From Thioalkalivibrio sp. AKL19 (GTDB lineage Bacteria > Pseudomonadota > Gammaproteobacteria > Ectothiorhodospirales > Ectothiorhodospiraceae): a DNA stretch of 64,000 nt. The translations under genes were made by a program, and so were the position numbers. The stretch is from the NCBI RefSeq assembly GCF_000420165.1, contig NZ_ATUK01000011.1, forward strand, positions 1 to 64,000, read 5' to 3'. Position 1 is the first letter of the stretch. The number at the start of each line of letters is the position of its first letter. Shown here piece by piece: positions 29,240 through 40,218 of the stretch. The notes under the pieces were generated by a model, which did no database searches, had not been told where the DNA came from, and saw only the letters and a program-made list of their open reading frames with translations.

Positions 29240-30649
29240 ATGTCCGCAGCCGACGTGCTGAACCAGATCAAGGAAAAGGAAGTGCGCTTCGTCGACTTCC
29301 GTTTTACCGACTCCAAGGGCAAGGAACAGCATGTGACCATGCCGGCCCACGACATCGACGAAGAGACCTTCGAGGAAGGCAAGATGTTCGACGGCTCCTC
29401 GATCTCCGGCTGGAAGGGGATCAACGAGTCCGACATGATCCTGATGCCGGACGCCGAGTCGGCCGTGATCGACCCGTTCTTCGAAGACATGACCATGAAC
29501 ATCCGCTGTGACGTGGTCGAGCCGGCCACCATGCAGGGCTACGACCGCTGCCCGCGCTCCCTGGCGCGCCGTGCCGAGGCCTACCTGCAGAGCACCGGCA
29601 TCGCCGACACCGCGCTGTTCGGCCCGGAGAACGAGTTCTTCATCTTTGACGACGTGAAGTGGGGCACCAGCCTGTCCGGCTCCTATTGCCGCGTCGACTC
29701 CCAGGAAGCCTCCTGGAACTCCGAGCGCGTCTACGAGGACGGCAACATCGGGCACCGCCCGGGCGTGAAGGGCGGCTACTTCCCGGTCCCGCCGGTCGAC
29801 AGCCTGCACGACATCCGCTCCACGATGTGCGAAGTCATGACCGAGATGGGCCTGGAGACCGAGGTGCACCACCACGAGGTGGCGACCGCCGGCCAGTGCG
29901 AGATCGGCGTGGGTCCGGCGACCCTGACGCAGAAGGCCGACGAGGTGCAGATCCTGAAGTACGTGGTGCAGAACGTGGCCCATATCCACGGCAAGACCGC
30001 GACCTTCATGCCCAAGCCGATCGTGGGTGACAACGGTTCCGGCATGCACGTGCACCAGTCACTGTCGAAGGATGGCAAGAACCTGTTCTCCGGCGACCTG
30101 TACGGAGGCCTGTCCGAGACCGCACTGTTCTACATCGGCGGCATCATCAAGCATGCCCGCGCGCTGAACGCCTTCACCAACCCGTCCACCAACAGCTACA
30201 AGCGCCTGGTGCCGGGCTTCGAAGCACCGGTCATGCTGGCCTACTCCGCGCGCAACCGCTCCGCTTCGCTGCGTATCCCGTTCGTGATGAACCCGAAGGG
30301 CCGTCGCGTCGAGCTGCGCTTCCCGGACTCCACCGCCAACCCCTACCTGGCGTTCGCCGCCATGCTGATGGCTGGCCTCGACGGTATCCAGAACAAGATC
30401 CACCCGGGCGACGCGATGGACAAGAACCTCTACGACCTGCCGCCGGAAGAGGAAAAGGGCATCCCGCAGGTCTGCCACTCGCTGGACCAGGCGCTGGAAG
30501 CCCTGAACCAGGATCGCGAGTTCCTGACCCAGGGTGGCGTGTTCACCGACGACATGATCGATGCCTACATCGACCTGAAGATGGAAGACGTCACGCAGAT
30601 GCGCATGACCACCCATCCGATCGAGTTCGACATGTACTACAGCCTGTAA
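29240..30649 (+). CDS. glnA: Glutamine synthetase, type I
   Basis: 469-residue dodecameric enzyme that makes glutamine from glutamate, ammonia and ATP. Catalytic segments are [24 protein letters not shown] and [13 protein letters not shown]. The regulatory adenylylation tyrosine is Y398 in NLYDLPPEE. The ATG at 29240 follows AAGGAG. Upstream are a sigma-54 promoter and two NtrC sites, so nitrogen control is expected. It converges with the asnB-like amidotransferase gene of the proposed carbamoyl-amide cluster. Confidence 0.98.
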
Positions 30650-30686
30650 GGCACCCGCTTCCGGCCCCTCGGGGCCGCGAGGCCAT

Positions 30687-30721
30687 CCGCCGCCGCGCCC
30701 GCCGGGCCGGCGGCTTTTTTG
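30687..30721 (+). terminator. Intrinsic terminator after glnA
   Basis: CCGCCG (30687-30692) pairs with CGGCGG (30708-30713) with further GC pairs inside, followed by CTTTTTT. A smaller GGCCCC/GGGGCC hairpin sits just upstream at 30663-30676. Confidence 0.85.
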
Positions 30722-30765
30722 TGTCCGCCTGCCCGGCAGGCAGTCAGTCGGGAGCCGCAAATGAA

Positions 30766-30796
30766 AGGCCCCGCGGATCGACAATCCGCGGGGCCT
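30766..30796 (-). terminator. Stem-loop terminator of the carbamoyl-amide cluster
   Basis: A perfect 13-bp stem (30766-30778 with 30784-30796, arms AGGCCCCGCGGAT and its complement) with a 5-base loop. On the minus strand it is followed by TTTCATTTG, a weak T tract, 53 bases after the asnB-like stop. Confidence 0.7.
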
Positions 30797-30848
30797 GCGA
30801 GCGGGACAGGGGAGGAGTTCCCCGGACCCGCCTGGTCGTCGCCGGTGA

Positions 30849-32867
30849 TCAGGCGTGCCAGCCGAACTCCTCGGCCTTTTGCTGCGCCAGCGCCGGGATG
30901 TCCGTGGCGACGAACTTCTCGTACAGCACCTGGACCCCGATCATGTGGTTGATCACCGCGTCCAGCTGGACCTGGGTGGCGGCCGGGGTATCCTCGGACT
31001 CGTGCAGCTCGAACACCTGGCGCACACCCTCCGGGTCGAGCAGGCCGGCCTGCTCGACCTTCTCCGGCGCGAGGTAGCGATCGGCGAGGGCCTTCATCGC
31101 GGCCCACTTCACCGGGTCGGTGTGCGCCGGCGGCGCCATGAACGCGAACTTCTCGCGCTCGTAGAGGACCTTGGGCAGCAGTCCCTTCATCGATTCGCGC
31201 AGCACGTACTTCTCGGTCTTGCCCTTGATGCGCATGGTCGGCGGCAGTTGGGCGGCGAACTCGGCCAGGTGGTGATCGAGGAACGGCGGACGCGCCTCCA
31301 TCGAATTGGCCATGTCCATGCGGTCGCCACCCCAGGTCAGGATCTGGCCTTCCAGCATGGTCTTGATCCAGACGTACTGCGCCTTGTCCAGCGGATGCCG
31401 GCCTTCCAGCATGTCGTCGTCCAGGGCATCGGCGATGGCCTTGCCCGGCTGGTAGCCCTGCATGCGCGCGCGGCGCTTCGGATGCAGCAGGCCCGGGACG
31501 TGGTCGGCCGCGGCCAGCCACGGCTGCAGGCAGGACGGCGTGAACCCCATCATCTTCGTGAATTCGGGGTCATCCAGCTCGTTCTCGGCCAGCATCGCGC
31601 CGGATACCAGTTCGTTGGATTCGTTCAGCATCTGCTGCCAGGCCTGGCGATCGGCCTCCGGCAGGGTATCGAGGCCGTGCAGGAACATGTCGCGCCGGAA
31701 GGCCGGGTAGCCGCCGAACAGCTCGTCCGAACCCTCGCCGGTGACCACGACCTTGTAGCCGGCCTTGTTCACGTGGCGGCTCATCAGCAGCTTGGCCACG
31801 CCGAGCGTGTTGTAGATGGTGCGCTCGGCGTGCCACAGCGCCTCTTCGAAGTTGTCGTAGAGGTGGTCGGCGTTCAGGGTCATGATGTCCTGGTCGGCGC
31901 CGACGCTCTCGGCCATCTCGCGGGCGATCGCGGTCTCGTCGTAGTCGTCGTTGTCGAAGCCGATGGTGAACGCCTTGACCGGCGCCTGCTGGCTGGCCGA
32001 GGCGAGCCCCAGGGTGATGCAGGAGTCGATCCCGCCGGAGAGATAGCAGGCCACCGGCACGTCGGCCTCCAGGCGCAGCTGCACCGCCTCCATCAGCTTC
32101 TCGCGCACGCCCTCGATCCAGTACTCCTCGTCGGTCTCGCTCTCGGGCGGGCGCTCGGAGGCCAGCGGGAAGTCCATGTCCCAGTACTTCTCCTGGCGGA
32201 TCTTCAGCTTCCCGTGGGCGCGCTCGACGATCACCATGTGCCCGGGCTTCACCTGGTGGATGTCCTCGAACGCCGTGGTCCCGGGCACCATCGTCTGCAT
32301 CAGCTGGTGGTACAGGCCGTCGTCGGAGAACTGGCGCGGGACGTCGGGGTTGGCGAACAGCACCTTCAGCTCGGAGCCGAATACGAAGCTGCCGTTGGCC
32401 TCGGTGAAGTACAGCGGCTTGATGCCGAAGCGGTCGCGGATCAGTACCAGCCGGTCATGCTCGCGGTCGTACAGCGAGATCGCGAATTCGCCGCGGAAGT
32501 GCTTCACCGCGTCCTCCAGCCCCTCGCGCTGGTACAGGTGCATGACCATCTCGGAGTCACTCTTGGTGCGGAACTTGACCCCGCGAGAGGTGAGATCCGT
32601 GCGAATGCGCTTGTAGTCGTACAACTCGCCATTGACCGCGGTCATGATCTCGCCGTTGGTCATGCAGAACGGCTGGCGCCCGCGGTTCTCGTCCAGGTCG
32701 ATGATCGACAGCCGCGCGTGGGAGAACCCCACGCCACGGTCATCCTGCGTCTTGTAGCCAAAGCCGTCAGGGCCGCGGTGATACTGGATCGCGGCCATGT
32801 TGACCAGGGTTTGCGGGTCGACCTTGCGGTTCGGGTCGGCGTGAAAGATTCCGGCGATGCCACACAT
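30849..32867 (-). CDS. asnB: Asparagine-synthetase-like glutamine amidotransferase
   Basis: 672 residues, about 120 longer than E. coli AsnB. The class II glutaminase domain starts at C2 (MCGIAGIF) with RGPDG and VNGELYD; the ATP-pyrophosphatase synthetase domain has SGGIDS (277-282) and GEGSDELFGG (377-386). The family activates a carboxylate with ATP and amidates it with ammonia from glutamine; substrates range from aspartate to osmolytes such as N-acetylglutaminylglutamine. The gene lies 90 bases downstream of the carbamoyltransferase and ends the minus-strand cluster. Ordinary asparagine synthesis cannot be excluded; context suggests amidation of an N-carbamoyl amino acid. Confidence 0.9.
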   Translation of the reverse strand: MCGIAGIFHADPNRKVDPQTLVNMAAIQYHRGPDGFGYKTQDDRGVGFSHARLSIIDLDENRGRQPFCMTNGEIMTAVNGELYDYKRIRTDLTSRGVKFRTKSDSEMVMHLYQREGLEDAVKHFRGEFAISLYDREHDRLVLIRDRFGIKPLYFTEANGSFVFGSELKVLFANPDVPRQFSDDGLYHQLMQTMVPGTTAFEDIHQVKPGHMVIVERAHGKLKIRQEKYWDMDFPLASERPPESETDEEYWIEGVREKLMEAVQLRLEADVPVACYLSGGIDSCITLGLASASQQAPVKAFTIGFDNDDYDETAIAREMAESVGADQDIMTLNADHLYDNFEEALWHAERTIYNTLGVAKLLMSRHVNKAGYKVVVTGEGSDELFGGYPAFRRDMFLHGLDTLPEADRQAWQQMLNESNELVSGAMLAENELDDPEFTKMMGFTPSCLQPWLAAADHVPGLLHPKRRARMQGYQPGKAIADALDDDMLEGRHPLDKAQYVWIKTMLEGQILTWGGDRMDMANSMEARPPFLDHHLAEFAAQLPPTMRIKGKTEKYVLRESMKGLLPKVLYEREKFAFMAPPAHTDPVKWAAMKALADRYLAPEKVEQAGLLDPEGVRQVFELHESEDTPAATQVQLDAVINHMIGVQVLYEKFVATDIPALAQQKAEEFGWHA

Positions 32868-32957
32868 GGCATGTCTCCTTGGTTATCCGTTCGGGGCGAG
32901 CGGGGCGCGGGCCGGACAGGCCGGCGCGCCACGCCGCTCGCGGTTCAGTGAAAAGGT

Positions 32958-34040
32958 TCAGCCTTCCGGGGTGTCCATCACCGCGCTGATGCGGCGCACC
33001 ACCGTGGTCAGCAGCGCCATGCGCACGAACACCGCCCCGCGGGCCTGGGCGAAGTACCAGTTGTGCGGAGTGTCGTCGAGGTCGGTGGACAACTCGTTGC
33101 CACGCGCGAGCGGATGCATGACGATCGCGCCTTGCTTCAGCGGCGAGTTGCGATCCAGCTTCAGGCCCTCGCCCATGGATTCGAAGGTATCGCCGACCCA
33201 GGCAATGGCGTTGATGTAGACCACGTCCAGCTCCGGCAGCACCGGGTCCAGGTCGTGCACCACCCGCAGCGAAAGCCCGGCCTGCTCCAGCTCCTCGCGC
33301 TGGCCGGGGTCGAAGTTCTCGTCCTCGCGCGAGATGATCACCACCTCCTCGACCGCCTCCGGGAACAGGCTCAACAGGCGCAGCAGGGAACGGACCGTGC
33401 GCATCCGCGACGGCACTCCGATGATGCCCACCTTGACGCGGCTTTCCGGCGCGACCGTTTCGGCGAACAGCTCCGGGCGCCACTTGGCCAGGGTATAGAC
33501 ATCCGCCAGCGCCTGGGTCGGATGCTCGTCGATGCCGTTGCCGGCATTGACCAGCGGGATGCGCAGATTCTCCAGCATGTTGTGCGCGGCCTCGCCGTCG
33601 GAGGAGCGCAGCACCAGCACATCGCCGTAGTTGTTGAACATCTCGGCGATGTCCGCCAGCGATTCGCCCTTGGCAATACCGGTGCTCTTGGGGTCGGTAA
33701 TCGACATGACCGACCCGCCCAGGCGGTGCCAGGCACTCTCGAACGACAGTCGCGTGCGCGTCGACGGCTCGTAGAAGGCGCTGATGAGGATTTTGCCCGC
33801 CAGCGGCAGGTGCATCAGCGCCGGGGTAGTCTCGTACTGCGCCGCCAGGCGGAACAGCTGCAGCAGCTCGTCACGCGAGAACTGCTGGCTGGAGACCACA
33901 TGCGAGGCCGCCAACTTCAGCAACGGATCGGGGTCTTCCTCCACCGCGTCCAGCAGCGCCTTCGGCCGGTCGGTACCGGCGGCGCCGTCTTTCGGGTGGA
34001 GTACATGCAGGGGATCTTCGGTGTAGTTCACCAGAGGCAT
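32958..34040 (-). CDS. ATCase-like carbamoyltransferase of unknown acceptor
   Basis: 360 residues with a 50-residue N-terminal extension compared with PyrB. Carbamoyl-phosphate motifs are complete: STRTR (93-97), NAGNGIDEHPTQ with HPTQ at 173-176, and HPLAR (309-313). In E. coli PyrB the aspartate-binding loop reads RVQKER; here the equivalent stretch is NAIAWVGDTFE (277-287), so the Arg and Gln that hold aspartate are lost, while R214 in MRTVRS (PyrB R167) is kept. No pyrI or pyrC is adjacent. The acceptor is therefore probably another amino compound. The start overlaps the small membrane ORF by 13 bases. Confidence 0.88.
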   Translation of the reverse strand: MPLVNYTEDPLHVLHPKDGAAGTDRPKALLDAVEEDPDPLLKLAASHVVSSQQFSRDELLQLFRLAAQYETTPALMHLPLAGKILISAFYEPSTRTRLSFESAWHRLGGSVMSITDPKSTGIAKGESLADIAEMFNNYGDVLVLRSSDGEAAHNMLENLRIPLVNAGNGIDEHPTQALADVYTLAKWRPELFAETVAPESRVKVGIIGVPSRMRTVRSLLRLLSLFPEAVEEVVIISREDENFDPGQREELEQAGLSLRVVHDLDPVLPELDVVYINAIAWVGDTFESMGEGLKLDRNSPLKQGAIVMHPLARGNELSTDLDDTPHNWYFAQARGAVFVRMALLTTVVRRISAVMDTPEG

Positions 34041-34150
34041 CCTTTTTTCCAGTCGCGGATGAACAGGGCAATCAGCAGGATCGGGGTCAGGGTCGCCACG
34101 CTGGTGGCGAGGACCACGATCACGGACAGTGCGGTAATCGAGATCGTCAT
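34028..34150 (-). CDS. 40-residue membrane peptide, probable symporter accessory subunit
   Basis: Starts MTISITALSVIVVLATSVAT, continues as one hydrophobic helix (LTPILLIALFI) and ends RDWKKGCLW. Its ATG overlaps the symporter stop (ATGA at 34147-34150) and its end overlaps the start of the carbamoyltransferase, so it is translationally coupled on both sides. One-helix peptides of 30-60 residues often accompany SSS and NSS transporters (MetS-like or symporter small accessory proteins). Coding is supported by overlap geometry and hydrophobicity, not by similarity I could test. Confidence 0.7.
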   Translation of the reverse strand: MTISITALSVIVVLATSVATLTPILLIALFIRDWKKGCLW

Positions 34151-35604
34151 GCCGGCACCTCGGCGTCCGAACGGGCCAGGCGGCCCCAGTCAAACGGCCG
34201 CGGCATCAGCCAGGTAGTCAGGACCATCACGGCCAGCGACACGGCGGCCCCGACCAGCGCGGCCACGTAGAACCCGATCAGGAAATAGCTGGTCAGCCCG
34301 ATGCCGGACCCCAGTATCATCGACCAGGCGGCGCCCTGCGGGTTCGCCTTCTTCCAGTACAGCCCGGCGACGATGGGCCAGATCGCGGAGGCCACGAAGG
34401 CGCCGGTGAAGTACAGGAGCTCCGCCAGGGAGCCGACAATCGGGATCTCGCCGCGGTAGCTGGCCGCCAGCCAGGTCAACAGCCCCAGCAGCACGACGAT
34501 CACCTTGGTCGCGTGGAACTGGTGTTGCTCGCTGGCCTGCGGGCGGATGTGCCCGCGATAGATGTCGCGCGTGACCAGGTCGGACGTGGCCGCCAGCAGC
34601 GAGTCGAGACTGGAGGCCAGCGCGGCGAACACCACGATGAACACCACGATCGCCCCGGTCAGGCCCAGCACCTCGGCGGCCACCAGCGGCCCGACCATGT
34701 CGGCTGCGGGCACGTTGATCCCCAACGCCGGCGTGGCCAGCGCGATGAAACCGGCGACGATCGGGATCGGCAGCCACAGCAAGCCGCCGAAGAGGTAGGC
34801 GCGAAAGCCCACGTTGCGGCCGAAGGCGAAGGCGCGCGACCACCAGACGTTGGAGTGGAAGATCTCGCCCACGCCGAACAGCAGGTTGTTGAACAGGAAC
34901 ATGATCGCGGCCGGGAACAGCAGGCTGAGCAGTTCCGGGCGCTCTTCCATCAGGTTGAAGTGGATTGCCTCGAAGCCGACTTTGTCGATGGTCAGCCAGG
35001 CGATGAACGCCGCGCCGGCGATGATGATGACGGTCTGGATGAAGTCGGTGCCGATCACCGCGCGCAGGCCGCCCAGCAGGGTGTAGAGCACGCAGACAGT
35101 CAGGATGACGGTCATGCCTACGCGGTAGTCGATGCCGGCCAGGGCGTTGATCAGCACGCCGCCGGCCATCGCCATCGAGACCAGCCAGCCGAAGGCGTAG
35201 ATCAGTGACACCACCAGGAACACCCGCCAGGTGAATTTGCCGTAGCGCAGGCGGATGAAGTCGCCGGAGGTAAAGCCCTCGGGCATCAGTTCGCGGATGC
35301 GCCGCGCCAGCGGCGCGAACAGGATCAGTCCCAGGGCGCCCAGCGAGTAGCCGAGCATGCCCCAGACCCCCAGTTGCAGCGCCAGCTGCGGGGCCGTCAT
35401 CGTGGTATTGGCAGTGACCCAGGTGGCCATCGCGGTGGCGGTGGCCAGCGCCAGACCGACGTTGCGCCCCGCCAGCATGTGATCCTCGGCGGTCTTGTTG
35501 CGACGACCCAGCCACCAGCCCAGCACGACCCAGAGGACGCTGAACGCCGCCAGCAGCCCCCAGGCGATGGAGGTCGGGAGGATCGGGTCATCGAGACCGG
35601 TCAC
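34147..35604 (-). CDS. Sodium:solute symporter (SSS family), DUR3/urea-transporter-like
   Basis: 485 residues, about 13 helices. It starts at GTG 35604, overlapping the upstream stop (GTGA). SSS sodium-site segments are visible near VFAALASSLDSLLAATSDLVTRDIYRGHIRP (cited in part: ASSLDSLLAATSDL). The TAEDHMLAGRNVG and ATWVTANTTMTAP regions recall the DUR3 urea-transporter branch, so a ureido or carbamoyl compound is a sensible substrate. It stands between the amidase genes and the carbamoyltransferase. Confidence 0.9.
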   Translation of the reverse strand: MTGLDDPILPTSIAWGLLAAFSVLWVVLGWWLGRRNKTAEDHMLAGRNVGLALATATAMATWVTANTTMTAPQLALQLGVWGMLGYSLGALGLILFAPLARRIRELMPEGFTSGDFIRLRYGKFTWRVFLVVSLIYAFGWLVSMAMAGGVLINALAGIDYRVGMTVILTVCVLYTLLGGLRAVIGTDFIQTVIIIAGAAFIAWLTIDKVGFEAIHFNLMEERPELLSLLFPAAIMFLFNNLLFGVGEIFHSNVWWSRAFAFGRNVGFRAYLFGGLLWLPIPIVAGFIALATPALGINVPAADMVGPLVAAEVLGLTGAIVVFIVVFAALASSLDSLLAATSDLVTRDIYRGHIRPQASEQHQFHATKVIVVLLGLLTWLAASYRGEIPIVGSLAELLYFTGAFVASAIWPIVAGLYWKKANPQGAAWSMILGSGIGLTSYFLIGFYVAALVGAAVSLAVMVLTTWLMPRPFDWGRLARSDAEVPA

Positions 35605-36344
35605 GAAGCCTCCTGCACCTTCTTAATCTCGCGGATCGCCTCGTCGGTGGTCATCACGCGGGCGTAGCGGTCCTTGATGGTCGTGAGCGTGGCCTTCTGC
35701 ATCTCCGGCGTCACCGTGGCCGTGGCGTCGTCCATCAGGGTGACATAAAAGCCCAGGTCACAGGCATCCCGCACGGCGGTGGAGACGCACTCGTTGGAAT
35801 ACACCCCGACGATGAACAGCGCGCTGATGTTCAGGTTGCGCAGGATGTAGTGGAGGTTGGTGGAATTGAAGACCCCGCTGGCGGTCTTGTCCAGCACGAT
35901 CTCGTCGCCCACCGGGGCCACCTGCTCGACGAACTCGGCGTCCTTGGAACCGGGGGCCGCGTGCAGGTTCAGGCGCTTGTGGCCCGGGCTGCGGTCGCGG
36001 CCATCATGCGTCAGCGAGCGGATGCGGGTATGGATCACCTCCAGCCCCTCTTCGCGGAAGGCATCCTGCAGGCGGCGCACATTGGGCAGCACCGTCTGCT
36101 CCAGGCGATTGAAGTAATACTCCTGGGCCTCCAGCGGCACACCAGAGTCGGCGGAGTTCGCGAACACGCCGTGGCCGCGCGCGGCATCCAGATACTGCAA
36201 GTCGATGCACAGCAGGGCAACATGGTGCTCCCGCAACTCCTGACGCAGCACCGGCGTGGTGATCAGGCTTTCCTGGTACTGCTCGCGCAGCGGATCCAGG
36301 GAGTCGTAGTCGGTCAACTGGGTGACGTTGTCGTGTTCGGCCAT
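35601..36344 (-). CDS. Isochorismatase-family cysteine amidohydrolase
   Basis: 247 residues. The catalytic triad is D48 (LLCIDLQ), K153 (VLDKTASGVFNST) and C186 (YSNECVSTA). Family members hydrolyse amide or carbamoyl C-N bonds (N-carbamoylsarcosine, ureidoacrylate, nicotinamide). It is about 40-50 residues longer at the N-terminus than the core fold. ATG 36344 has GAGGAAG upstream. The gene is 25 bases behind the M20-type hydrolase and overlaps the symporter start, so one pathway is implied: I infer removal of the C1 amide from a carbamoylated amino-acid amide. Confidence 0.88.
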   Translation of the reverse strand: MAEHDNVTQLTDYDSLDPLREQYQESLITTPVLRQELREHHVALLCIDLQYLDAARGHGVFANSADSGVPLEAQEYYFNRLEQTVLPNVRRLQDAFREEGLEVIHTRIRSLTHDGRDRSPGHKRLNLHAAPGSKDAEFVEQVAPVGDEIVLDKTASGVFNSTNLHYILRNLNISALFIVGVYSNECVSTAVRDACDLGFYVTLMDDATATVTPEMQKATLTTIKDRYARVMTTDEAIREIKKVQEAS

Positions 36345-36369
36345 TCCGGGCGCTTCCTCTCGTCGCGAT

Positions 36370-37611
36370 TTATTGCCGAGCGGCCAACGCCAGGGCACTT
36401 TGCAGGGTCAGATTGGCGCCGGTCTCGATGTCTTCCCAGTTTGTCCATTCCGCGGCGGAATGGCTACGCCCCTGCAGGCTCGGCACGAAGATCATGCCGG
36501 TACGGGTGATGCGGCTCATGCTCTGGGTGTCGTGGGCCGCGCCGCTGGGCATGGTGATGTACTCCAGCCCCATGCGCTCGGCCTGCGCCTCGATGGTCTG
36601 GACGATGCCCGGGTCACAGCGCACCGGGTCGATCTCCGAGAGGACGTCGAACTCGAACATCAGGTCGCGCCGACGGGCCAGACTCGAAAGCGTGCGCCGG
36701 GCCGCATGGGCCAGCGCGGTCAGGACCTTTTCGTCGGTGTCGCGCACCTCGAAGGAAAAGGTCGCCATGCCCGGCACGGTGTTCGCCGCCCCCGGTGCCA
36801 GCTCCACGCGGCCGATGGTGGCGCGCGAGTTCGGGCTGCCATGCTCCTCGATCAGGCGATTGATCTCGCCGCCGAACTCCGCCAGCCCCTGGAAGGGATC
36901 GATGCGCATGTCCATCGGCGTGGTGCCGGCGTGGTTGGGCTGGCCCTTCAGGCGCACCTCCCACTTGAACAGGCCGGTGATCGCCTCGACCACGCCGACA
37001 CTGAGGCCGCGGCGGTCCAGCACCGGGCCCTGTTCGATATGGGTTTCAATGAAGGCGTGCAGGGTGTGCGGGTCGCGCCGCGCGGCCAGGGCGTCATCGG
37101 CGTTCAGGCCCCAGTTGGCCATCGCCTCGACCAGGGTGACCCCTTCCAGGTCGCGGGCGTGGCTGATGCTCTCCGGGGTCAGCTTGCCGGCCATCGCCTG
37201 GGAACCGAACATGCCGCCGAACCGGCCTTCCTCGTCGGTGAAGTCGATCACCTCGAGGGGGTATTCGAGGTCGACCGCATTCTCCTTGGCAGTGCGCAGC
37301 ACCTCCAGCCCGATCAACACGCCCAGCGCCCCGTCCAGCGGACCCCCACCGGGCACGGTATCCAGGTGCGAACCCATGGCCACTACCGGGCGCTTGCCGT
37401 CGTAGTCCAGGCGCCCATGCAGGTTGGCGGCACCGTCCTGCCAGACATCCAGGCCGGCAGCCTCGAGGCGCCCCCGAAACCACTCGCGCCCCGCGCGGTC
37501 GCCCTCACTGAAAGCGCGGCGATGCAGGCCGCGGTCGGCATCACGACCAATCTGCCCCAACTCGTTGATGTCCTGTTGCAGGCGCTGCATGTTGATCTTG
37601 AGATCCGTCAT
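36370..37611 (-). CDS. Zn-dependent hydantoinase/carbamoylase family amidohydrolase (M20)
   Basis: 413 residues, standard for N-carbamoyl-L-amino-acid hydrolase and allantoate amidohydrolase. Binuclear metal ligands are H82 and D93 (GSHLDTVPGGGPLDG), E127/E128 (DFTDEEGRFGG), the His in FIETHIEQG and the His late in the catalytic domain. The family removes carbamoyl groups from L-amino acids, giving ammonia and CO2. The ATG at 37611 has the strongest ribosome site in the cluster, AAAGGAGG. It is first of four tightly coupled genes. Confidence 0.92.
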   Translation of the reverse strand: MTDLKINMQRLQQDINELGQIGRDADRGLHRRAFSEGDRAGREWFRGRLEAAGLDVWQDGAANLHGRLDYDGKRPVVAMGSHLDTVPGGGPLDGALGVLIGLEVLRTAKENAVDLEYPLEVIDFTDEEGRFGGMFGSQAMAGKLTPESISHARDLEGVTLVEAMANWGLNADDALAARRDPHTLHAFIETHIEQGPVLDRRGLSVGVVEAITGLFKWEVRLKGQPNHAGTTPMDMRIDPFQGLAEFGGEINRLIEEHGSPNSRATIGRVELAPGAANTVPGMATFSFEVRDTDEKVLTALAHAARRTLSSLARRRDLMFEFDVLSEIDPVRCDPGIVQTIEAQAERMGLEYITMPSGAAHDTQSMSRITRTGMIFVPSLQGRSHSAAEWTNWEDIETGANLTLQSALALAARQ

Positions 37612-37694
37612 GGAAACCTCCTTTAGCGGGTCCACCCCGGATCAAGCGAAAACGTTCTACGCCAACACGGATCGACAGGACTGGACCGGGTGAA

Positions 37695-38096
37695 TCAGTC
37701 GCGCGGACGGCCGCGCAGGATGGCCCCGATCAGGACCAGGAAGACGACTGCGCCCACCGCGAAAAAGCCGAAGGCGCGCGCCAGGCTGTGATGCTCGACC
37801 ACGACCGTGGCCTCGTCGGCCCAGGCGTCGGCATCCGCGGCGCGCAGGCGGAAACGGTATTCACCGTCGGGCAGGCCGCTGATGACCGTGCTGGTATCAC
37901 CGCCCTCGTAGAGCGTGCGCGCATCCCCATGATCCGGCCCGGTGGCCTGCTCCAGCACCACCGGCCCATCGGCCTCCCAGGCGAGTGTGAAGCCGCCATC
38001 CGTGGAGCGTTCGGGCGGTGCGTCGAATGCCGGCTGGGCACTCACGGCAAGCGGCAGCCAGAGCAGAAACGGCAGGAGGGGGCGAATGAGTCGCAT
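37695..38096 (-). CDS. Membrane-anchored protein with fibronectin III-like domain
   Basis: 133 residues: signal peptide (1-20, cut near VSA-QP), a beta-rich domain of about 75 residues resembling FN3 (TLAWEADGPVVLEQA; YRFRLRAADADAW) and one C-terminal helix (about 107-126) ending RGRPRD. The bulk should face the periplasm. It lies 23 bases after the marR-type gene, on the same strand. I do not recognise a specific family; an envelope role in osmolyte sensing or uptake is only a guess. Confidence 0.65.
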   Translation of the reverse strand: MRLIRPLLPFLLWLPLAVSAQPAFDAPPERSTDGGFTLAWEADGPVVLEQATGPDHGDARTLYEGGDTSTVISGLPDGEYRFRLRAADADAWADEATVVVEHHSLARAFGFFAVGAVVFLVLIGAILRGRPRD

Positions 38097-38119
38097 CGGG
38101 GCCTCCGCGTCACCCCGGC

Positions 38120-38656
38120 TCAGGACTTGCCGTCGAACGGCTGCAGCCCGGCCTTGGGCTCGGTTGTATTCATCGCCTCGACCAACAGGTCCAGGCCCTG
38201 ATCCAGTTCCTCGAGGCGGCCCTTCGGCAGCGACTGCAGGGCCCGGTTGAGCTCACCCTGCGGCGCGGCCGGTGCCTTGTCCAGCAACTCCATACCCGCA
38301 TTCGTCACGTACAGGCGGACGATGCGCTGGTCCTTTTCCGGACGCCGGCGCTCGATCAGGCCACGGTGCTCCAGCTTGTCCAGCAGGTTGGAGGTGGTGG
38401 AGGCATGCACCGAGAGCCGGCGCGACAGGTCGCTGACGTTCAGCCCCGGTGTGCGCTGCAGCTCCCACAGCGCCCACAGCTGCGAGGCACTGATCCCGCA
38501 GGCTCGCTCCACGGTCCGCGAATGGCCCTGCAGGGCGCGGATGATCACGCGTAACTGGCGGATCACCGAGCGCGCGACATCCGGCTCGCCCTGGGTACTG
38601 GCCGCCGGGCCGCTCTCGTTTTCGGGTGCCTGGGGCACAGCCTGGGTGGATGCCAT
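38120..38656 (-). CDS. MarR-family transcriptional regulator
   Basis: 178 residues. A 30-residue acidic leader precedes the winged-helix domain: ISASQLWALWEL, LNVSDLSRRLSVHASTTSNLLDKLEHRGLI (recognition helix in HASTTSNLLDKLE) and the wing RRRPEKDQRIVRLYVT. No Cys redox pair. The promoter contains a 16-bp palindrome that probably is its operator. MarR-type regulators (EctR) also control ectoine genes in halophilic Gammaproteobacteria, which fits an osmolyte cluster. ATG 38656 was chosen over a long upstream frame that crosses the porin promoter region. Confidence 0.88.
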   Translation of the reverse strand: MASTQAVPQAPENESGPAASTQGEPDVARSVIRQLRVIIRALQGHSRTVERACGISASQLWALWELQRTPGLNVSDLSRRLSVHASTTSNLLDKLEHRGLIERRRPEKDQRIVRLYVTNAGMELLDKAPAAPQGELNRALQSLPKGRLEELDQGLDLLVEAMNTTEPKAGLQPFDGKS

Positions 38657-38690
38657 CAAAACTTCTCGCAATTGAATCACTCGGTTAGTT

Positions 38691-38706
38691 ATTTTTGTAC
38701 AAAAAT
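38691..38706 (-). promoter_or_regulatory. Palindromic operator in the marR promoter
   Basis: ATTTTTGTACAAAAAT is a perfect 16-bp palindrome 35 bases before the marR-type ATG. On the minus strand TTGCAA (-35 like) is followed after 17 bases by AAAAAT (-10 like), so the palindrome covers the end of the spacer and the -10. Binding there would block the cluster and autoregulate. The remaining part of the 371-base gap to the porin gene shows no clear element. Confidence 0.65.
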
Positions 38707-39027
38707 AGTTCCATTGCAACTTACGCCCCGGCTGGCGAAATCGCGCCACGGGCTCTACACAAGTGGATTGGGGAGCCTGCTCCAGCGGAGAGCCCTTCCC
38801 GCTACGCCGGGGGAAGCCGGGCAGCTGCAGGCCCTCGAGCCAGAGAAGGAACACGGGGCGAGTGTCGTGGTCATACCACAGTGTGCGGGACTCACGTCGC
38901 CTGTTTACAACGCACCAGGAAGTGCTCATAAGCATTCCCCGCGTTGGATTCGGGAGGCCGGACGCACTGCGTGTCGGGCCGGAAGGCCACTGCGACACCC
39001 GACCCGCCCGACCAGAGAGGAATCGCA

Positions 39028-40218
39028 ATGAAGAAGACGATGAGCTGGACCCTGGCACCCCTGTCCGGTGCCGTTGCCCTGGCCCTGTTCCTGGGCCCGA
39101 ATGTCGCTGCCGCGGAATACGACAGCATCCAGGTTGGCAACCTGTCGATCGGCGGCGCCCTGCGCGCGAACTACGTAATCGGTGACTACCCCGACTCCGA
39201 CCGCGAATCGTGGGACAAGGGCGGAAACTTCGTCCTCGACACCGCTCGCATCAACCTCGACTACGAGAACGGCCCCTGGCTCGGCAAGCTGGAGTACCGC
39301 TGGTACGACGGCTACAACATGCTGCACACCGGTTGGGTGGGCTACAACTTCGAGAACGAGAGCCAGTTGCAGGTCGGCGTGAACCGCGTGCCCTTCGGCC
39401 CGGGCCCCTACGGCGTCTCCCAGAGCTGGTTCTTCGACCAGCACTACTACGTGGGCCTCTCCGACGACATGGATCTCGGCGTCAAGTACACGATGCCGAT
39501 GGGCGACTGGACCTGGGACTTCGGCTACTACGCTCGCGATGAGGGGCACTACTCGGGTGATACCCGGGACAGCGCCCGGTACTCCTACGATGTCGTCAAC
39601 GAATCGGGTGACGGCTACGAAGAACGCAATCAGTTCAACGTGCGCGGGATCTACAGCATCCCGAATGCCGACACCGACGTCGGCTTCTCGGCCCAGTACG
39701 GCGAGCTGAAGAGCAAGGGTCCGCAAAGCGATGGCGACCACTACGCGGTCTCGGGCCACATGGTCAACAACTGGGGCAACTGGACCCTGGCCAGCCAGCT
39801 GACCTATTACAAGTTCGACGTGGACGCGAACCAGCCGCTTGGAACGGACACGCTCGTCCAGATGGGCGCGTATGACTTCCCCAATACCGTGGCAGCCGAG
39901 GGCTGGATTCCGGCCGTCTCGCTTAGTTACTACCAGGAAACCAGCAACATCCCGTGGCTGGACTACGTAATCCCCTACGCCGAGGTCTCCTCCATCGTGA
40001 AAAGCGAGAGTGACTTCAACAACAGCGACATGCTGGTGCTGGGCGCCGCCTGGGCGCGGGGCAACTGGTACATCTACACGGACCTGGCCTATTCCAACGG
40101 CAACGAGTTCGTGGGCGGCAACCGTCGCGGCGACAACCCGTTTGGCGATCGCCTTGGGGCCAACGAGGACGACAACTGGGAGGCCCGTTTCAATATTAAC
40201 TTCGGGTATTACTTCTAA
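39028..40218 (+). CDS. Outer-membrane porin
   Basis: 396 residues with a 29-residue signal peptide (VAAAEYDS cleavage region). The mature part is rich in alternating aromatic/polar beta strands with Gly, Asp and Tyr and ends in the beta-barrel signal Y-Y-F. It resembles phosphate-selective O/P-type or carbohydrate porins; selectivity cannot be told. RBS GAGAGGAA. It diverges from the marR-led cluster, so it may form the outer-membrane entry for the same substrate. Followed by a good terminator. Confidence 0.85.
   Translation: MKKTMSWTLAPLSGAVALALFLGPNVAAAEYDSIQVGNLSIGGALRANYVIGDYPDSDRESWDKGGNFVLDTARINLDYENGPWLGKLEYRWYDGYNMLHTGWVGYNFENESQLQVGVNRVPFGPGPYGVSQSWFFDQHYYVGLSDDMDLGVKYTMPMGDWTWDFGYYARDEGHYSGDTRDSARYSYDVVNESGDGYEERNQFNVRGIYSIPNADTDVGFSAQYGELKSKGPQSDGDHYAVSGHMVNNWGNWTLASQLTYYKFDVDANQPLGTDTLVQMGAYDFPNTVAAEGWIPAVSLSYYQETSNIPWLDYVIPYAEVSSIVKSESDFNNSDMLVLGAAWARGNWYIYTDLAYSNGNEFVGGNRRGDNPFGDRLGANEDDNWEARFNINFGYYF

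Follow-up and report, generated by a model that had tools for sequence, protein, structure and literature searches.

The osmolyte N-carbamoyl-glutamine amide (CGA) was reportedly first described by Galinski and Oren in 1991. In published work, which is drawn on here and throughout from parts of the papers cited, CGA is reported from Ectothiorhodospira marismortui (PMC1224877, PMC3857566), and in 2013 it was still listed as known from one organism (PMC3857566). No gene for CGA was found in the open-licence literature of PubMed Central (PMC), a scope that excludes subscription papers and preprints. The nearest known system is the operon for N-acetylglutaminylglutamine amide (NAGGN), in which an AsnB-like amidotransferase, an acetyltransferase and a peptidase stand under the control of a MarR repressor (PMC8070244). 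The subject of this study is a minus-strand operon in a 64,000-nucleotide stretch of the genome of Thioalkalivibrio sp. AKL19 (contig NZ_ATUK01000011.1, positions 1 to 64,000; hereafter the window), which is probably a conserved module for making and recycling CGA and is the best candidate found for the pathway of this solute. In order of transcription it encodes a MarR-family regulator, a small membrane protein (FN), an M20-family hydrolase (HYD), an isochorismatase-fold amidase (ICH), a sodium:solute symporter (SSS), a 40-residue transmembrane protein (the 40-mer), a carbamoyltransferase (CT) and an amidotransferase (ASN); from ICH to CT, each gene overlaps the next by a few bases. For this combination of genes nothing relevant was found in the open-licence PMC literature. 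An original prediction, made from the letters of this DNA, had listed the amidotransferase, carbamoyltransferase, symporter with a small subunit, amidase, hydrolase and MarR regulator; all of these are present, the enzymes, SSS and MarR with agreeing Pfam and NCBIfam assignments, and FN and a palindrome before the MarR gene are additions to that list. The central idea of that prediction is supported here.

In the pathway proposed here, which is predicted throughout, from its reactions, acceptor and direction to its transport substrate and regulation, CT would carbamoylate the alpha-amine of L-glutamine, with carbamoyl phosphate as donor, to give N-carbamoyl-glutamine, and ASN would use ATP and the amide of a second glutamine to amidate the free alpha-carboxylate, yielding CGA, which is uncharged. 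In turnover, ICH would hydrolyse the alpha-amide first and HYD would then cleave the carbamoyl group, returning glutamine. Leaked CGA would be recaptured by SSS together with its tiny transmembrane partner and the FN3-like subunit FN, and the operon would be repressed by MarR via the palindrome. Glutamine is proposed as acceptor, and CGA as product, on the strength of the published chemistry of E. marismortui (PMC1224877, PMC3857566), combined with inference.

One line of evidence for this proposal is the constancy with which CT and ASN occur together. A pattern scan of 84,980 species genomes for relatives of CT gave 305 candidates at E 1e-3, which may include ordinary aspartate carbamoyltransferases (ATCases), one of the two peptide patterns used being presumably common in ATCases. 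Locus counts therefore rest on the best 80 of the 305, each of at least 61% identity and fetched with flanks; in 75 of these the sequence runs on for at least 1500 bp downstream of CT, and 64, termed long loci, have long flanks on both sides of it. The identity limits for counting HYD (at least 55%) and MarR (at least 45%) were set by the authors, and gene calling, which is unreliable in GC-rich loci, was used solely for viewing neighbours. CT and ASN occur together in 74 of the 75 loci that could show both, the exception being Thiorhodospira sibirica. ASN was counted in 77 of the 80 loci (63 of the 64 long ones), always on the strand of CT and within 400 bp of it in 74 of the 77; of the three loci in which it was not counted, one is T. 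sibirica and two are contig ends. In the remaining three of the 77 (L107, L115 and L152, which are one unclassified metagenome-assembled genome (MAG), one MAG labelled Leptospiraceae and one labelled Spirochaetaceae), CT is separated from ASN by HYD and ICH. Because CT and ASN are same-strand neighbours in nearly every relative examined, their grouping goes beyond chance.

Two further samples agree. Among 144 relatives searched genome-wide (thresholds of 60% identity for CT and E 1e-150 for ASN; two extra CT matches of 38% and 33% identity excluded), CT was found in 48, ASN in 48 and both in 47; the two discordant genomes are 66-67% complete, each with a fragment of the other gene at a contig edge. 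Among 398 genomes drawn evenly from the phylum, where scoring covered the top few candidates per genome (CT at E 1e-70, ASN at E 1e-150), CT occurs only in the window's genome and one other (G279), and ASN in the same two. The second genome has the order FN-SSS-CT-ASN, with CT of 46% and ASN of 53% identity, and a divergent HYD-like gene (48%) nearby. In T. sibirica (L042/L099, L161, L162, L168, L196) the operon is dispersed over five sites of one 2.9-Mb contig, with ICH at about 658 kb, CT at 1,598 kb, ASN at 2,305 kb, HYD and FN at 2,467 kb and SSS at 2,488 kb, at identities of 69-76% (FN 44%); that each of these genes survived the break-up of the operon speaks for a single pathway. The CT-ASN pair is also present in Idiomarina, Kangiella and MAGs labelled Spirochaetota. 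The refuting outcome named with the original prediction, a lack of joint conservation of the two genes, did not appear: they occur together and adjacent across the Gammaproteobacteria, in the distant genome G279 and in the Spirochaetota-labelled MAGs. The module as a whole falls into a CT-ASN core, a transport arm of SSS, FN and the 40-mer, and a pair formed by HYD and ICH.

CT scores 199.5 bits against TIGR00670 (aspartate carbamoyltransferase), below the cutoff of 236.95. In E. coli ATCase numbering, all 80 CTs keep S52, T53, R54, T55, K84, R105, H134, R167 and T168, and 79 keep Q137. We take S52, T53, R54, T55, K84, R105, H134 and Q137 to be the carbamoyl-phosphate residues of ATCase, and assume that R167 binds the alpha-carboxylate of aspartate while R229 and Q231 bind its side-chain carboxylate. 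The position of R229 is occupied in the 80 CTs by alanine (66), serine (11) or threonine (3) and that of Q231 by alanine (70), serine (9) or valine (1), and R234 falls in a gap. An alternative 12-row alignment places Q231 opposite a gap in CT, and there all four pyrB rows keep R229, Q231 and R234; the pyrB of the window's own genome keeps R229 and Q231. With R167 kept and R229 and Q231 lost, the predicted acceptor has a free alpha-carboxylate and an uncharged side chain, which in turn predicts that carbamoylation comes first and amidation second. Judged by these residues, CT appears to be an ATCase-like carbamoyltransferase without the aspartate side-chain residues, for which the alpha-amine of glutamine is the proposed acceptor. 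An AlphaFold model of CT (mean predicted local distance difference test (pLDDT) score 63.6) was too poor for use. Irregular or distant CT-like genes were also seen: in L050 (G044) the gene lies in two overlapping pieces in different frames, possibly a frameshifted copy, and two other class members (L051, L052) have distant CT-like genes of 40% and 32% identity, one of them with a weak ASN-like match nearby.

The link to CGA itself comes from the producer. The strain of the 1991 study was presumably the type strain of E. marismortui, DSM 4180. Its genome is FOUO00000000 (PMC8877833), and that genome (L095, filed as E. mobilis DSM 4180) carries MarR-HYD-ICH-CT-ASN, so that the genes are present in the type strain of the species reported to make CGA. 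Four genomes (assemblies 98-100% complete), those of DSM 4180, E. mobilis DSM 237 and T. sibirica and the window's own, have exactly three genes of the carbamoyltransferase family apiece, 12 in total, namely argF, pyrB and CT; since the others are argF and pyrB, CT is the sole member of the family free for another acceptor, and carbamoylation could also be the work of an enzyme unrelated to the family. These results bear on a first alternative, that CT and ASN make the N-carbamoyl amide of some other uncharged amino acid, such as asparagine. The residues of CT speak for the loss of aspartate side-chain binding and not for which side chain is chosen instead, and the 80 loci span many genera while the chemistry of CGA is reported for one species; nevertheless, the type strain of the CGA producer itself has the cluster and has no other spare gene of the family, and we regard such an analogue as rather unlikely.

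Synthesis of CGA by CT and ASN would be complemented by a separable turnover pair, since the 37 of the 64 long loci that have HYD at the 55% limit are also exactly those that have ICH; a HYD-like gene of any kind is present in 49. HYD scores 370.5 bits against TIGR01879 (hydantoinase/carbamoylase amidase; cutoff 204) and also exceeds the cutoff of NF006771, and the solved structure nearest to it by sequence is the N-carbamoyl-L-amino acid hydrolase 3n5f, all of which is in keeping with its proposed cleavage of the carbamoyl group. In ICH, for which removal of the alpha-amide is proposed, D48, K153 and C186 are invariant in eight of eight aligned sequences; D-K-C is, we assume, the catalytic triad of isochorismatase-fold cysteine hydrolases. 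C186 aligns to the cysteine of 6xix, which is a serine in 6xj4, and ICH reaches 75.8 bits against NF050097 (biuret amidohydrolase), far from the cutoff of 370.

SSS, which would recapture or import the solute, is present in 54 of the 64 long loci and FN in 41. A short hydrophobic open reading frame (ORF) lies between SSS and CT in all 67 SSS-bearing loci, by a permissive criterion applied without a control, and in 59 of the 67 it ends in D-[WFY]-x(3-7)-W. The AlphaFold model of FN (pLDDT 88.1) is a beta sandwich followed by a C-terminal helix (residues 105-129) that is probably transmembrane, and its Foldseek matches are mostly FN3 and Ig domains, weak ones (best E 8e-4, TM-score 0.34 on the query). 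FN is likely a partner of SSS, and the way in which FN and the 40-mer travel with SSS suggests a multi-subunit type of SSS transporter. The families of HYD, ICH and SSS have many catabolic members, and catabolic carbamoyltransferases exist, so the whole might be read as an operon in which ureido or amide compounds enter through SSS and are degraded by ICH and HYD, CT runs in reverse to form carbamoyl phosphate, and ASN is unrelated. This we consider improbable: the most constant neighbour of CT is ASN, whereas ICH is lacking at the locus in 27 of the 64 long loci, SSS is absent from all eight Ectothiorhodospira loci, ASN is co-retained with CT in T. sibirica even though unlinked, and the Thioalkalivibrio hosts are described as obligate chemolithoautotrophs.

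ASN is, by its motifs and family matches, apparently a class II glutamine amidotransferase of the asparagine-synthetase-like kind, and in the proposed synthesis of CGA it would amidate the alpha-carboxylate of the N-carbamoyl amino acid. It scores 429 bits against TIGR01536 (glutamine-hydrolysing asparagine synthase; cutoff 267.1), and its first residues, M1-C2-G3-I4, with Cys2 as the glutaminase nucleophile, are invariant in seven aligned rows. Against TIGR03104, the model of the NAGGN amidotransferase AsnO, it reaches 302.5 bits at a cutoff of 570.1. A quick tree of 29 rows, flagged for its long branches, unites the 17 CT-linked ASN rows with support 100* and separates them from E. coli AsnB. 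The window's genome has a separate asnO (C10:71301-73073) that exceeds the TIGR03104 cutoff, and because of this second gene its host may make two glutamine-amide osmolytes. That CT and ASN are chance neighbours, with CT a second ATCase or ASN a housekeeping asparagine synthetase or glutathione-amide synthetase, is very improbable: ASN does pass TIGR01536, and glutathione amide is thought likely in Ectothiorhodospiraceae (PMC8877833), but CT lies below the ATCase cutoff and lacks the R229 and Q231 that pyrB keeps, all four genomes checked have further asparagine-synthase-family genes, ASN is present in E. mobilis and E. marismortui although these were found to have no glutathione reductase, and Idiomarina and Kangiella carry the pair as well.

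The regulator MarR was counted in 25 of the 64 long loci. A perfect, AT-rich palindrome of 18 bp, TATTTTTGTACAAAAATA, ends 33 bp before the start codon of MarR; a search that tolerated as many as three mismatches found a single copy in the window, and none of 100 shuffled sequences contained one. Of the 21 loci titled Thioalkalivibrio, 17 have a version of the palindrome ahead of MarR and two (L076, L088) a weaker variant, and the contigs of the remaining two (L089, L101) are too short to show it. Seven of eight Ectothiorhodospira loci also have versions, L096 having none, and in DSM 4180 and two other Ectothiorhodospira the palindrome is imperfect (12/18 symmetric). The same filter gave 22 scattered matches in 18 of the remaining 51 loci, and given this scatter an isolated match in those loci, for example the one ahead of the L100 operon, may be due to chance. 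By analogy with the NAGGN repressor and EctR, MarR probably represses the operon through the palindrome. A tblastn search with MarR of 25 asnO loci (flanks of about 1.5 kb) and of the asnO region of the window's genome gave no match at E 1e-3, and MarR was rejected as a homologue of the asnO-side regulators. None of its 17 NCBIfam matches is named EctR.

The features of the cluster and its flanks are collected in Table 1. Nine terminator-like sites were found in the window against 3.1 expected; the hairpin after ASN has the longest stem and is likely the end of the operon. A scan for sigma-70 promoters over 30500-39100 found none, and Rfam at gathering cutoffs found two tRNAs only, both outside the cluster.

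Table 1. Features of the proposed CGA cluster and its flanks (positions within the window).
Feature	Position	Strand	Basis
Terminator-like hairpin, 14 pairs, after ASN	30766..30796	-	Terminator scan
ASN	30849..32867	-	PF00733, GATase_7, TIGR01536
CT	32958..34040	-	PF02729/PF00185, below TIGR00670 cutoff, active-site map
40-residue single-transmembrane protein, between SSS and CT	34028..34150	-	Short hydrophobic ORF
SSS, sodium:solute symporter	34147..35604	-	PF00474
ICH, isochorismatase-fold amidase	35601..36344	-	PF00857
HYD, M20 N-carbamoyl-L-amino-acid hydrolase / allantoate amidohydrolase family	36370..37611	-	PF01546, TIGR01879, NF006771
FN, FN3-like small membrane protein	37695..38096	-	AlphaFold, Foldseek
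MarR-family regulator	38120..38656	-	PF01047
18-bp perfect palindrome TATTTTTGTACAAAAATA	38690..38707	strand-neutral	Candidate MarR operator
Divergent 'porin' ORF	39028..40218	+	Without Pfam or NCBIfam match

Two neighbours had been counted as parts of the system, a divergent porin as importer and glnA as supplier of glutamine. The divergent plus-strand ORF is indeed present, but neither it nor FN has a Pfam or NCBIfam match at E 0.001, and for want of a family-model match its identity as a porin is unconfirmed. It has a match in 11 of the 80 loci, all Thioalkalivibrio, four of these matches being partial (51-57% identity). The glnA gene, convergent with the operon, lies within six of the 80 loci and directly adjoins ASN in four, again all Thioalkalivibrio. 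Both were rejected as parts of the module, being near the cluster only in some Thioalkalivibrio, and their proposed roles are not upheld. The table of the T. versutus salt transcriptome includes a glnA, which may or may not be the one beside the cluster.

Several observations weigh against assigning the module to CGA. None of the motifs tested encodes glutamine as acceptor, and one phosphate-loop residue differs from ATCase, since S80 is a glycine in all 80 CTs. ASN is not closest to AsnO, having missed the cutoff of TIGR03104 and formed a tree group of its own. The distances of CT and ASN are correlated (0.83 over 72 loci), a value without phylogenetic control. In the 27 long loci from which both hydrolases are missing, the rest of the genome was searched in T. 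sibirica alone, which has both elsewhere, and 12 of the 27 carry a more distant HYD-like gene. In the literature, two reports on Thioalkalivibrio give glycine betaine as a solute, and the word 'carbamoyl' is absent from their main text (PMC8092127, PMC9062515); the operon does not appear in the main-text table of nitrogen genes of the T. versutus salt transcriptome, the locus tags of which were unmatched. For E. marismortui itself, CGA has been termed a minor solute and gave no Raman signal, though a reference spectrum was lacking (PMC3857566).

The CT-ASN core is found in at least some 80 species-level genomes, and its hosts include soda-lake sulfur oxidisers, purple sulfur bacteria, Idiomarina, Kangiella, clam symbionts and Spirochaetota-labelled MAGs. 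A fuller reading, in which CT is opposed by HYD and ASN by ICH, a dedicated three-part sodium symporter completes the CGA system, and CGA is widespread as a marine and soda-lake osmolyte, seems to us about evenly poised between right and wrong. If it is true, a solute reported from one organism would be widespread in marine and soda-lake habitats and a nitrogen-rich component of dissolved organic matter. The cluster predicts CGA in genera for which no report of it was found. T. sibirica, for which no osmotic stress genes were annotated and sucrose, CGA or NAGGN were suggested as solutes (PMC7824335), carries all the enzymes of the cluster. CT would, moreover, extend a textbook enzyme family by a carbamoyltransferase whose acceptor is not aspartate.

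Among known systems, PyrB shares with CT the protein family, the carbamoyl-phosphate residues and R167; CT differs in that R229 is replaced and Q231 and R234 are absent in all 80 sequences, and in falling below the ATCase model. HYD resembles the M20 N-carbamoyl-L-amino-acid hydrolases and allantoate amidohydrolases in passing both of their models and in its nearest structure, but unlike them it stands beside synthetic genes and, at the 55% limit, never occurs without ICH (37 of 37 long loci). ICH in turn has the family and the D-K-C triad in common with biuret amidohydrolase, RutB and N-carbamoylsarcosine amidohydrolase, and lies far below the cutoffs for both BiuH and RutB. The site of EctR is described as an AT-rich pseudo-palindrome in which 2 bp separate two 8-bp half-sites (PMC5924519); EctR and the regulator described here are both of the MarR type and the 18-bp site has the same 8-2-8 layout, a likeness that rests on site layout and not on EctR sequence, and the genes controlled differ. 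The NAGGN operon (asnO, ngg, peptidase and the MarR gene PA3458) likewise brings together an amidotransferase that amide-caps a glutamine derivative, an N-modifying enzyme, a hydrolase and a MarR regulator (PMC8070244). In the cluster of Thioalkalivibrio sp. AKL19, by contrast, the N-modifying enzyme is an ATCase-like carbamoyltransferase and not Ngg, the neighbours are CT, SSS, ICH and HYD, and ASN and AsnO belong to separate tree groups, the same genome having its own asnO elsewhere.

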